Positions 3,024 through 47,881 of a DNA stretch of 55,407 nt are shown piece by piece. The number at the start of each line of letters is the position of its first letter. The stretch's first letter is position 1. The position numbers were made by a program, and so were the translations under genes. The stretch spans positions 84,273-139,679 of the forward strand of contig NW_006766896.1 of assembly GCF_000275845.1 (NCBI RefSeq). The letters are read 5' to 3'. A model generated the notes under the pieces. It saw only the letters and a program-made list of their open reading frames with translations, had not been told where the DNA came from and ran no database searches. This DNA is from Dichomitus squalens LYAD-421 SS1 (lineage: Eukaryota; Basidiomycota; Agaricomycetes; Polyporales; Polyporaceae).

Positions 3024-4742
3024 ATGTCGTCCTCTCAGGCTGCACAGTTAGCTGTTCAATATGCTAACAAGTGAGTCGCGTCGTTTTGCATCTCAAGCTC
3101 AAACTACAGGCACTGAAGCCTGCCCACACGGTGTAGCATGATCGGCAATTACTGCTTTTGTGCTGGAGCAGGTATGCCGCTCATTCGCAGTCCGTCGTTG
3201 GGCCCTCAACACCATGTAATTGCTGCTAACCCTGCGTATCACAGTGGTCTTCTTGTACGACTCAATCGTCACTACAATAGACGAAATACGGTTCTTCTGG
3301 AGAGGGAAAGTGACCGGAGCGGCCATACCCTTCTGGCTGAATAAGTACATAACCACGCTCACCTTGGTCTGGGACCTTGCGACTGGATTGAGCATATCCG
3401 ACAAGGTATGTAACCTCCATTGGATGAGCTGAGTATGTCCGCTGACAAACTATGCCAGAGGTGAGTTGATCCTACTGAGCCGCTCCTGCTCAGGAGTGCT
3501 AGAACCTCACATGTATGTGTAGCTGTGCCCTCTCTATGAAAGGGGATTATGCTGTGGGTTCCTTGCTAAACCTAATTCCAGCAGGTGAGCCCCGCGTACC
3601 TCTTGTTCCGAAGTGAATCCAACTCAAAACTGGTTCATTCAGCCTTCGTAGCTATACGTGTTTATGCACTCGGAAGGAGCTGGTTTCTATGCACTATTGC
3701 CATCGTCCTATCCGTAGTGCCTGTGGGAGCCAATTTCGTGAGATTGTTGTGTAACACATAGGTCATCGTCTCCTGACTGCTTGACAATTGGCAGGTCAAC
3801 TTCTGGTATCAACTGACGGGAAAGAATATCTTCCTCTTCGGATGTGAAGAGATCGACCATACCCCCGTGGCTCTCTCGACAAAGTCAGTCCCTACCGCCG
3901 CTTGTATAGTGATGTGCTAATGCCTTACTAAAAAGATTGCATTCGCTTCAGACGTAAGGCGTATACCTATACTAGATAGCCCCCAACTCTGACGGGCGAT
4001 TATGTTAGTTGTCATTATATCCCGCTCCTGCCTGATTGCGGCAGATTTCCTCGCCATTGGTGCAACATGGTCCACACTGGCCCAACGACCTCACAGCGTC
4101 CACCATATGAGCGTGCTCAAAGGCACTATATCCAGTGTCTTCTTGCTTGATGGTAAGCTCTAGCGTGTACACCCAATTTTCTCCTAGCGACGCCAACGTT
4201 ATTGCATTCAGGGACAGTCTATTTTGTGTGAGTCGCATACAATAGTCTTCCACCAAATCTCACCATCACCTTGCCTAGCACCCTTTCTATCCTCAACTGC
4301 TTGCACCTAGTTTTCACGGTTCTCTCGGTAATGCGGCACTTGTTATCCTAGGTTATGATACACTCATGTCCAACAGCTGGATTCGAATGGGCTGCAAAGC
4401 ACTAGCGCATTAACTACTTTCACAATCCCGTATGAGTGTATCTTCCCATATCGGAAGCTTTCTACTGAACTAGGATCATGCTTTCCAAGGTTATCGGCCA
4501 TTCTCATATCCCGCTTCCTCCTACATCTGCAGTCGGCGAGTCTCCGAGACGTCGGCTTCATAGCCTCTTCGCATGCTACCTCGACAAACCCCGAAGGCTC
4601 TATTATATTCGACCGGGTGGTCGGATCACTTGGTACTCCGATTGAAGCCCATGATTATATCAGACCAGAAGATGACTATGGGGAAGATGATGACGAGGTC
4701 AGAAATGAGGAAGCAGACCCGGCCTGCACGTCCAGAGAGTAG
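3024..4742 (+). CDS. DUF6533-type multi-pass membrane protein, paralogue 1 (335 aa)
   Basis: Integral membrane protein of the basidiomycete DUF6533 family, seven-helix-like, function unknown. Exons: 3024-3070, 3137-3171, 3245-3405, 3459-3460, 3523-3584, 3643-3737, 3795-3883, 3952-3953, 4009-4152, 4212-4227, 4279-4327, 4377-4429, 4490-4742, which sum to 1008 nt with no internal stop. The DUF6533 core (FLYDS...DEIRFFW...GAAIPFWLNKY) comes from exon 3. Further hydrophobic segments follow (AFVAIRVYAL, SRSCLIAADFLAIGATW, LSILNCLHLVFTVLS, LSAILISRFLLHLQSAS), then a hydrophilic acidic tail (EDDYGEDDDE) presumably in the cytoplasm. Two 2-nt exons, AG at 3459-3460 and AC at 3952-3953, are required for frame. 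The start MSSSQAAQLA matches MASSQTAQLA of paralogue 3. Exon structure is shared with 38648-40367 and 46158-47881. Family call is from recall of the conserved core; a receptor-like role is only a guess from topology. Confidence 0.8.
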
Positions 4743-38647: not shown

Positions 38648-40367
38648 ATGGCTTCCTCACAGTCAGACTCGATTGATGCAGAATATGCCACCGGGTCAGT
38701 TGTTTTCCCTTCTGCCCAGCCATGGAGAAAGGTGACTCAATCCTTCATGTCGTGTTAGCATTGTTGGTCTTTGCTGCAACGTTGCTGGAACAGGTATCCT
38801 AGTTCAAGCTTGTAGTCGAAGGCTCTCAAACAACCACTCACTCACATGGCTACCATTTTGCAGTTGCATTTCTGTATGACGCAACCATCACAACTGGAGA
38901 AGAAGTTCGCTGTTTCTGGGGGCGTAAAGTCACCGGCGCTGCTATTCTTTTCTGGCTGAACAAATACATGAACGCAATGTTTCTGGTTTGGCTCTTTGTC
39001 ACAGACTTCAAGATTTCGGATGAGGCAGGTACTTTCCTCTTGATTGTTAGTGAATTGTTCCTGAATGACCATACAACTTCATCAGAGGTCAGTAGAGCCC
39101 GTTACCTTGTCTGGTGCAAGTTCTATAGTCACCCTTCTCTTGACAGCTGTGACCGCTCTGCCAAAGGAACCGCAGTTGTGAACTACCTGATTTACCTGGT
39201 TCAAGCAGGTGAGCGTTGTTGTCTCATTAATCAATGTGGACACGATTCAGCGTCGGTATCCTAGCCTTCATCGCATTACGTGTATATGCACTCCAGAAGA
39301 GCTTGATTATATGCGCAATGGCCTTCATGTTGGCTTTAGCGCCTCTCACAACCAATTTTGTAAGTACTCTTCAATAACTGTTAGCCTCATACAGCAGTCA
39401 TCATGATAGCAGGCCAACTTCGCTTTCGGATTGTGGGGCGGAAATGTGGCGCTATTTGGGTGTACCCAATTCTACAATACTACATTTGATATCGCCAGAG
39501 AGTCAGTCCTTTCTAAGAAATTGTGATGCATCGCCTTGACTGAAGCGAACTCTGCTCTTCTAGATGCAAGTTGTGCACGAATACTAAGCTCACACATACT
39601 CATTTGCGCACCATTCAGTAACCGTCATATCCCGTTCATGCATGATTGCATCAGACGTGCTCGCTGTTGCTGTAACATGGTACACACTAGCTCATCACAG
39701 CACCATCAGACGTTTCAGTATGTTCAAAGGCACCATATCGGGTGTCTTGTTGATTGATGGTGGGAAATACATGACATACACACGCTCCTTCAATATAGCT
39801 GACTGTCAATCACAGGAACAATTTACTTCCTGTTAGTAGCGCGTTATAGAATGTGCAAGGACTCATTATCTTTCTTAGTATCCTTGTTCTCGTGAATTCT
39901 CTACACCTGGCATTCACATTACTGTCGGTACGCACATGTCCTACTTCATTTACTCGATCGATAATAATCTTAAACGTCATAGCTTGACATTGACGAGCTG
40001 CAAGTAACAAGTGTGATTACGAACTTCACCATCCCGTATGTCTCCCTATTTATTTAATTGCTCTCACTAAATTCTTTCAATGCACCCCATGCACATCCGA
40101 CACTCTAGCTTTTCTGCCATCCTCATATCGCGTTTTCTTCTGCACCTACAGTCTGCAAGCATCGGGGACACTGGCTCCATACTTTCATCCCGAGACTCCT
40201 TGACGAACCTCGATGGAGGCTCTGTAATCTTCGAGCGGGTTGTTGGGTCACTCGGGGCTTCCATTGCGCCCAGTGACTACCTTGTGCAGGACAATCACTG
40301 GAACACCGGTGAAGACGAGCACGGAAAAACGGAAGAGATCGAGCTGAATGAGACGTCGAAGGAGTAA
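38648..40367 (+). CDS. DUF6533-type multi-pass membrane protein, paralogue 2 (336 aa)
   Basis: Exons: 38648-38694, 38759-38793, 38864-39024, 39086-39087, 39147-39208, 39265-39359, 39413-39501, 39564-39565, 39619-39759, 39816-39831, 39879-39927, 39983-40035, 40109-40367 (1011 nt). The DUF6533 core reads FLYDATITTGEEVRCFWG then AAILFWLNKYM; further membrane segments follow, and the tail is charged (EDEHGKTEEIELNETSKE). Two introns use GC donors: 39025 (GATGAG|GCAGGT) and 39566 (AT|GCAAGT). Both adjoin the 2-nt exons AG (39086-39087) and AT (39564-39565). Without the AG microexon the frame hits TGA at once. Exons 1-8 have lengths identical to paralogues 1 and 3. Function unknown; the family is expected in a membrane. 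Likely duplicated together with flanking blocks X and Y. Confidence 0.8.
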
Positions 40368-46157: not shown

Positions 46158-47881
46158 ATGGCTTCCTCACAGACAGCACAGCTTGCCGCTGAGTATTCTA
46201 GCGTGTATGTGACCTGTCCTCTGACTGAACCCGATACTGCGGGCGCTGACGATGGATCGCCTGACCGCATAGCATGACAGACAACTACTGCGGTCTCGCA
46301 GCAACAGGTACAGTCCCTACTGAGCGGGAGCATACCATTCGAATGCCCTTGAGAATCAATGCTAATCCATTCACCGATCTGTTTGGCAGTGGTGTTTTTA
46401 TACGACTCGATTATCATGACTGGTGAAGAAATCCGGTGTTTCTGGGGACGGAAGATAACAGGGGCAGCCATCTTGTTCTGGCTGAACAAGTACATGACCG
46501 CGCTCTATCTCGTTTCGGACCTTGCAACATTTTTCAATCTATCCGATAAGGTCTGTCCTCCGCCCTTGCTAGGATCGAATGAATCCACATATATCTTGAC
46601 TTCACCAGAGGTAAAGCAATTCAATGGAGTCCCTACAGAGCACTGCAATCAATCGTGTCCATGCAGCTGTGCCCTATCTGTCAGGGGTAGTGATGCCATT
46701 GAATACTTGACGTTTATAGTCCCCGCAGGTGAGCACCTCGTATCCACTGATATCTTCGAGCAAATCTCGATATTTTGATTTCCCAGCGTTCACAGCCATC
46801 CGTGTCTATGCACTCAGGAGGAGCTTAACTCTGTGTGCTATCACTGCTGGCCTATCCTTAGCGCCTCTCGGAACTAACTTTGTGAGATTGGATCGCGGCA
46901 TGTTCATTGCTTTCCTGTGGATACTGATTCATTAACAGGCGATCTTCAGGCTCGGACTGACCGGCCAGAATATATTTCCCCTTGGATGCACAGGATTTGA
47001 CAATGTGTCCACTAGTCTCGCACAAATGTAAGGCTCCCTGAGAGCGTCGATTGAGACTCCACTGAAGCCCAACCTACCTATCATAGATGTAAAGTGCAAT
47101 CCAAGTCTACATGAACGCTCAATCTTACCAGCTTCTTTAGTTACTATCATTTCTCGGTCATGCGTCATTGCAGCAGATTGCCTCGCCATAGGTTTCACAT
47201 GGTTCATGTTAGGTCTGCAGTATCCAGCTTACCGCGGAGGCGTGCTTAAGGGCTCGATAGCTAGAGTCTTGCTGATGGATGGTGCGTGCTGAGTAGTACT
47301 AGTGTTGACTGAGGCGTAACATGCTAACTATATTGTTCACCCAGGGACAATCTATTTCCTGTGAGTGGGGTGGTTTTGCAGCATGTCGCATCTCACTCCT
47401 TTCTCATGTAGCATCCTCGCTGTGCTCAATTCCCTGCATCTTGCTTTCACGTTGCTTTCGGTGAGTTCACACTCTATAACTGAACCAGCACAACTTTCGA
47501 CCATGTGTTTTCAAGATCAATACAGACGCACTTGAACCTACAAGCGTAATGACAACCTTCACATTTCCGTACGTGCGCCTATGTACGTGTCACTCGATCC
47601 TATGTCTCCTGACTCTTCGCATGCACGTTCAACCACCCAGGCTATCTGCCATCCTCGTGTCACGCTTCCTCCTCCACCTACAGTCAGCTAGCCTTCGGGC
47701 GGTCGGCTCCATACCGTCCTCACAGATCTCGTCGCTGCACTTCGATCGTTCTCTGGTATTCGAACGGGTAGTTGGATCACTCGGAGCATCAATTGCCCCT
47801 GCAGATTACCTCAACGAGGACCATGGTGATGGTGACGATGGGGAGAGCGCTGACGAGCCAACTCAGGCATCGAGGCAGTAG
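46158..47881 (+). CDS. DUF6533-type multi-pass membrane protein, paralogue 3 (330 aa)
   Basis: Exons: 46158-46204, 46273-46307, 46390-46550, 46609-46610, 46667-46728, 46787-46881, 46939-47027, 47087-47088, 47141-47281, 47345-47360, 47412-47460, 47516-47568, 47641-47881 (993 nt, no internal stop). The DUF6533 core reads FLYDSIIMTGEEIRCFWG then AAILFWLNKYM. Later membrane segments include FTAIRVYALRR, SRSCVIAADCLAIGFTWFM, ILAVLNSLHLAFTLLS and LSAILVSRFLLHLQSAS. The tail is acidic (NEDHGDGDDGESADE). The 2-nt exons are AG (46609-46610) and AT (47087-47088); all introns here are GT-AG. Omitting the first microexon runs into TAG within eight codons. The start MASSQTAQLAAEY matches paralogue 1. Family function unknown. 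Confidence 0.82.

Follow-up and report, generated by a model that had tools for sequence, protein, structure and literature searches.

The window – a 55,407-nucleotide stretch of contig C14 in the 40.35-Mb genome (G000) of Dichomitus squalens – carries three forward-strand genes whose spliced proteins match DUF6533 (PF20151) at 26.9 (gene 1), 33.1 (gene 2) and 47.7 bits (gene 3), all above the Pfam curated cut-off of 24.1 bits. A first-pass annotation had proposed that each of these genes contains two exons of just 2 nt: one at site A, which separates exon 3 from exon 5, and one at site B, which separates exon 7 from exon 9. We remodelled the genes with our own spliced aligner, which fits DNA to a protein profile, accepts GT or GC as donor and AG as acceptor, lets codons be split across introns and permits exons of any length; we assigned the weights of its splice sites by hand. 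Run with the residues at the junctions masked, the aligner returned the same exons and the same intron lengths for all three genes, to the base.

In gene 1, exon 3 (3244..3405) lies in the DUF6533 region and ends in phase 0 with the residues SDK. It is followed by intron A1 (3406..3458, 53 nt, GTATGT..CCAG), microexon A (AG, 3459..3460), intron A2 (3461..3522, 62 nt, GTGAGT..GTAG) and exon 5 (3523..3584, 62 nt), which opens with C|TGT, so that AG supplies the first two bases of the serine codon AG|C. Exon 6 (3643..3737, 95 nt) and exon 7 (3795..3883, 89 nt, ending in phase 2) lead to intron B1 (3884..3951, 68 nt), microexon B (AC, 3952..3953), intron B2 (3954..4008, 55 nt, GTAAGG..TTAG) and exon 9 (4009..4154), which encodes SRSC and, as in the other two genes, was modelled as far as the query extends.

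The order of elements is the same in the other two genes. Gene 2 comprises exon 3 (38863..39024), intron A1 (39025..39085, 61 nt), microexon A (AG, 39086..39087), intron A2 (39088..39146, 59 nt), exon 5 (39147..39208, 62 nt), exon 6 (39265..39359, 95 nt), exon 7 (39413..39501, 89 nt), intron B1 (39502..39563, 62 nt), microexon B (AT, 39564..39565), intron B2 (39566..39618, 53 nt) and exon 9 (39619..39761). Gene 3 comprises exon 3 (46389..46550), intron A1 (46551..46608, 58 nt), microexon A (AG, 46609..46610), intron A2 (46611..46666, 56 nt), exon 5 (46667..46728, 62 nt), exon 6 (46787..46881, 95 nt), exon 7 (46939..47027, 89 nt), intron B1 (47028..47086, 59 nt), microexon B (AT, 47087..47088), intron B2 (47089..47140, 52 nt) and exon 9 (47141..47283). 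The sequence AGAGGT sits in the middle of the site A interval in each gene (3457-3462, 39084-39089 and 46607-46612). Thus the microexon positions and intron lengths put forward in the first-pass annotation were reproduced exactly by an independent alignment. Two donors of gene 2 are GC rather than GT – A1 with GAG|GCAGGT (39025) and B2 with AT|GCAAGT (39566) – and a GC donor (GCACGT) is likewise found at A1 of one further paralogue, L034. By eye, a small exon of 16 nt is also apparent after exon 9 in gene 1 (4212-4227, GGACAGTCTATTTTGT) and gene 3 (47345-47360, GGACAATCTATTTCCT).

Relatives of these genes are numerous. A family search found at least 150 DUF6533 matches in the genome; of the 150 listed, 91 fall within 94 loci that we modelled at both sites, seven more within loci examined at A only, and 52 lie outside the sample. 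The 94 modelled loci are made up of a close clade of 22 – the three window genes, 14 loci on the same contig (L033-L046) and five more (L093-L097) – and 72 others (L003-L032 and L051-L092); duplicate entries were left uncounted (L001, which is gene 1; L002, which is L044; and L047-L050, which are L003, L008, L013 and L024). When exons 3 and 9 were used as protein queries, the close clade proved to lie mostly on the window's contig. There, at roughly 20-398 kb of C14, DUF6533 genes have expanded strongly, with 21 close matches on both strands, one of them with a stop in exon 3 (C14:397469).

Within the close clade, a 2-nt exon was modelled at A in 22/22 loci and at B in 20/22, and the B element is also present in both of the exceptions, found by a frame-constrained search in L040 and by eye in L043. 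Exon lengths, with five loci fetched in part, are nearly constant and typically run 162, 2, 62, 95, 89, 2 and 143 nt. The two bases at A are AG in every member except L040, which has GG; those at B are AC, AT, GT or GC.

We asked the aligner to model the same clade with exons shorter than 8 nt forbidden. Every clade gene could still be modelled, as would be expected if each gene instead used a single canonical intron of its own, with another in-frame donor or acceptor and a few residues added or dropped. However, the score fell in 22/22 clade genes, by 12 to 63 units, and in the window genes by 47, 41 and 31 units (genes 1, 2 and 3; both sites summed). The substitute structures of the three window genes moreover differed from one another and inserted intron-encoded residues. 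For gene 1 the aligner chose the single acceptor GCTAG|AAC, which the first-pass annotation had pointed out as an alternative. We regard gene-specific single introns as very improbable.

Across all 94 loci, the main pass of the aligner placed a 2-nt exon at A in 63 (L004, with a first intron of 138 nt, being doubtful among them) and at B in 62. The flanking phases were 0/2 at A in 63/63 and 2/1 at B in 62/62, and all 125 two-base exons of this pass lay at A or B. These counts describe one gene family in one genome, and related loci share ancestry and are hence not independent. In seven loci (L010, L016, L017, L032, L057, L077 and L085) the aligner had misread the donor GTATGT as Val-Cys. A second pass, in which the Cys after A was masked and the intron penalty lowered, gave 61 at A and 64 at B; because it recovered some loci and lost others, we report counts for each pass and as a union. 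In the union of the main and second passes, 72 of the 94 loci have the exon at A, 65 at B and 54 at both.

A frame-constrained search of the leftover loci found a right-phase 2-nt solution in 12 more at A (L003, L026, L029, L032, L058, L060, L067, L070, L074, L075, L081 and L084) and eight more at B (L010, L012, L040, L058, L072, L073, L079 and L090), bringing the counts to 84 and 73 of 94; here single canonical introns were set out next to the two-intron solutions, with score sums, over two and four splice sites respectively, that are not comparable. Five of the 94 remain without an assigned structure at A (L014, L018, L024, L030 and L088), among them L024, which has a frame-correct 2-nt solution but was left out of the count because its upstream donor is in an unlikely place. 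At B, neither of the two passes nor the frame-constrained search yielded a model for 13 loci. In three of them the B element was seen by other means: L061 and L019 in the aligner's first pass, L019 having been matched by protein, and L043 by eye. The remaining ten have no assigned structure at B (L004, L011, L059, L064, L065, L067, L074, L080, L082 and L085); in L082 and L085 a single intron of 58 nt lies near B, but the exon upstream measures 70 nt, and neither locus was counted as a loss. In nine further loci, examined at A only and by eye, the arrangement AG, two bases, GT was present in 9/9. Five of these loci have AG as the two bases, L100 and L101 have GG, and L104 and L105 have AC; L104 can alternatively be read with an AG six bases downstream.

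Apart from the 125 two-base exons, 16 internal exons of 9 nt or less, seven of them of 8 nt, occur in the main-pass models. In low-scoring loci, a few 2-nt exons outside A and B also came out of the first pass (for example in L081) and the second (for example in L005 and L088). In L018, L056, L075, L078, L081 and L088, an 8-nt exon after a phase-2 intron at B corresponds to the 2-nt exon plus two codons; all six loci lie on the smaller side of the family tree, in a divergent DUF6533 subfamily. Another subfamily (L053, L091, L010, L016, L017, L032, L057, L077 and L085) apparently lacks the conserved Cys after microexon A; a 2-nt exon was modelled in L053 and L091, and a YAG-AG-GT element is present in most of the others.

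The letters of the microexons vary across the sample – AG, GA, GG, AC, AT and others at A; AT, GT, AC, GC and others at B. At A they are AG in 43/63 main-pass loci, and the codon completed there encodes Ser in 44/63, otherwise Gly, Glu, Asp, Thr, Met, Leu, Asn or Arg. The first-pass annotation had expected a Ser codon and a restored frame at A. The frame is restored and gene 1 does carry the Ser codon AG|C, but Ser is not an invariant of the family. Because the completed codon varies among paralogues, a copy without Ser at A does not speak against the microexon.

The frequency of AG directly before GT at A (43/63 loci) also brings to mind recursive splicing at a zero-length ratchet point, YAGAG|GT, in which the AG before the second donor would act as acceptor and no base would be retained. 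We consider this reading practically negligible: the frame would be left two bases out, AG and GT do not adjoin at A in 20/63 loci or at B in 61/62, and the two bases stay coding in paralogues that have a single intron (described below). As a class, zero-length recursive splice sites do not fit these intervals, in which the frame requires 2 nt.

How often might such candidates arise by chance? When the intervals were shuffled with dinucleotide composition preserved, a 2-nt candidate of any quality appeared in 16% at A and 15% at B, and one matching the observed quality in 0.8% and 0.5%; the 22/22 and 20/22 of the close clade exceed what chance would give. We also reran the aligner on clade genes in which the inner interval had been shuffled while the donor and the last 45 nt of the interval were retained; a 2-nt exon was then placed in 19/132 runs at A and 16/120 at B, and the score dropped by 24.7 on average.

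Measured one by one, the flanking introns resemble the other introns of the same models. Mean lengths are 57.7 (A1), 58.0 (A2), 56.6 (B1) and 57.6 nt (B2) against 63.5 nt for the other introns, and the four medians fall between 56 and 57.5 nt. Mean acceptor scores are 3.16, 2.75, 2.81 and 2.96 against 2.67 for ordinary introns, and mean donor scores 3.32, 2.53, 3.90 and 3.04 against 2.87, the A2 donor being slightly weaker. A YTNAY motif lies near the acceptor in 54/63 (A1), 44/63 (A2), 53/62 (B1) and 50/62 (B2) introns, compared with 138/196 ordinary ones; it is no commoner at A2 acceptors than in ordinary introns. Counted intron by intron, most introns of each kind therefore have a branch-point-like motif of their own, although YTNAY is a common motif. 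A1, A2, B1 and B2 thus look like ordinary short U2-type introns, each with its own GT or GC donor and its own AG acceptor.

A small number of paralogues carry only one intron at a site. At A, L055 and L064 have the phase-2 intron only (47 and 55 nt), and the two bases end the upstream exon; L022 and L078 have the phase-0 intron only (59 nt each), and the two bases start a 64-nt exon. L065 is intronless at A. At B, L007 and L022 have the phase-1 intron only (52 and 54 nt). L055, L022 and L007 are the firmer cases; L064 and L078 score low and were drawn otherwise by the second pass. The existence of single-intron paralogues of both types indicates that the two A introns occur separately, at positions 2 nt apart. 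The residue count at the junctions – on which the first-pass annotation had made its reading depend – is unchanged in the single-intron paralogues of A and of B. Consistent with its two-microexon interpretation, paralogues share the positions and phases of the introns, and the single-intron copies join the two bases to a neighbouring exon.

These paralogues also bear on a reading in which each interval is a single long intron (~100-145 nt) whose 3' end is non-canonical, so that the mRNA retains the final AG ahead of exon 5 or exon 9. Such an intron would restore the frame at both sites and, where the microexon letters are AG (43/63 loci), would yield an identical mRNA at A. Yet such introns would end in 12 different dinucleotides at A and in 11 at B, and the reading leaves unexplained both the conserved acceptor-plus-donor in mid-interval and the doubled length. 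It predicts Val as the second residue at B in 54/62 loci, whereas single-intron paralogues L007 and L022 have Leu at that residue; with the microexon included, the residue is Leu or Phe in 53/62. Paralogues with an intron at just one or the other of the A positions also speak against it. We therefore give the retained AG very little credence. Because the microexon AG has the same letters as the acceptor before exon 5, plain cDNA cannot distinguish a 2-nt exon from a long non-canonical intron at A, and a cDNA aligner would probably report a non-canonical intron at the AG copies of that site.

To place these states in the history of the family, we mapped them by hand-set labels onto a tree of 90 proteins, from which L004 and L080 had been left out on score and L065 and L074 by hand. 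The four single-intron states at A require four changes, and copies with the 2-nt exon fall on either side of the midpoint root; support is moderate, with 39 of the 87 inner branches under 80. For these two reasons the double-intron arrangement was probably ancestral to the sampled family and has now and then been simplified by the loss of one intron.

Taken together, these observations make us highly confident that the 2-nt exons are a real feature at the level of the DNA. The explanation we favour, with a probability of about 0.93, is that each gene has two constitutive 2-nt coding exons, set between pairs of short introns at two old positions, and that the introns of a pair are removed successively. 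Site A consists of a phase-0 and a phase-2 intron 2 nt apart, and site B of a phase-2 and a phase-1 intron 2 nt apart; the spliceosome would include the two bases between them. Introns of ~57 nt would suit recognition across the intron, and the two introns of a pair may be excised consecutively by intron definition, in either order. U1 covers a donor from -3 to +6. At the second donor this footprint extends onto the final base of the first acceptor, and the two sites could therefore hardly be occupied together; given this overlap, the two introns likely leave in succession. Skipping either microexon shifts the frame by two, and inclusion is therefore needed for a full-length protein.

The intervals share several properties with ultra-short (1-3 nt) constitutive microexons: usable flanking introns with standard splice sites, preservation of the frame (phases 0/2 and 2/1 without exception in the main pass), conservation – here among paralogues of one genome – and copies in which the bases form part of a larger exon (L022, L055, L064 and L078 at A; L007 and L022 at B). 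The closest likeness is a confirmed 1-nt exon in the CYP621A P450 genes of Fusarium, called the first for a fungal gene in a study that also cites exons of 2-5 bp elsewhere (PMC12940212, 2026). There, as in the DUF6533 genes, an ultra-short and frame-essential coding exon lies between short fungal introns in an interval of doubled length, and a homologue without introns serves as a length marker; the CYP621A exon had been missed by annotation. The CYP621A exon measures 1 nt, occurs once per gene and was followed in orthologues across species with reads from two of them (PMC12940212), whereas the exons described here measure 2 nt, occur twice per gene in dozens of paralogues of one genome, are known from DNA alone and have single-intron paralogues for both A positions.

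Exons of 1 nt have also been confirmed in plants, in Arabidopsis APC11 and in VPS55 (PMC4674806, PMC8831610). These too are conserved among homologues, and for APC11 intron-lacking copies carry the base within a larger exon; they differ in being plant exons of 1 nt, one per gene, studied with reporter constructs (APC11) and RT-PCR (PMC4674806, PMC8831610). Nearer in taxonomy, the P450 genes of Phanerochaete chrysosporium are a basidiomycete family with many microexons and introns of 45-55 bp, but the shortest exon reported is 6 bp (PMC1184071). Stwintrons (spliceosomal twin introns) resemble the present intervals in placing two U2 introns in one fungal stretch for consecutive removal. In a stwintron, however, a splicing signal of one intron is split by the other; in the window genes two coding bases separate two complete introns, and we do not assign them to that class.

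Within the accessible parts of the open-licence PMC literature, we found no earlier report of a 2-nt exon in basidiomycetes or in DUF6533 genes; phrases such as 'exon of 2 bp' occur there in papers on the sago palm genome, HLA-F and a rare-disease database. Relative to the known 1-nt exons, what appears to be new is the size (2 nt), the pairing and the family-wide scale.

DUF6533 is described as basidiomycete-specific, and one protein with this domain, SNB1 (Snowball), has seven predicted helices and is needed for fruiting-body patterning (PMC10949477). The window genes share its Pfam domain. A more speculative idea, which we think unlikely, is that this genome has more than 150 two-base exons, all in one receptor-like family, and that their inclusion is more than tolerated and acts as a gate, such that conditional skipping would shut off many paralogues at once through a shared splicing state.

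Exons of 1-3 nt have hitherto been known as isolated curiosities, whereas most of the 94 modelled paralogues share one and the same pair of 2-nt exons. With varied letters, varied splice sites and natural one-intron copies, this family of fungal membrane-protein genes offers a ready-made series on minimum exon length, and the same series bears on which intron leaves first and on the competition between U1 and acceptor factors at a 2-nt exon. If the two-microexon reading is true, automatic gene models of the family – including, by domain, snb1 – would likely be wrong at two places.
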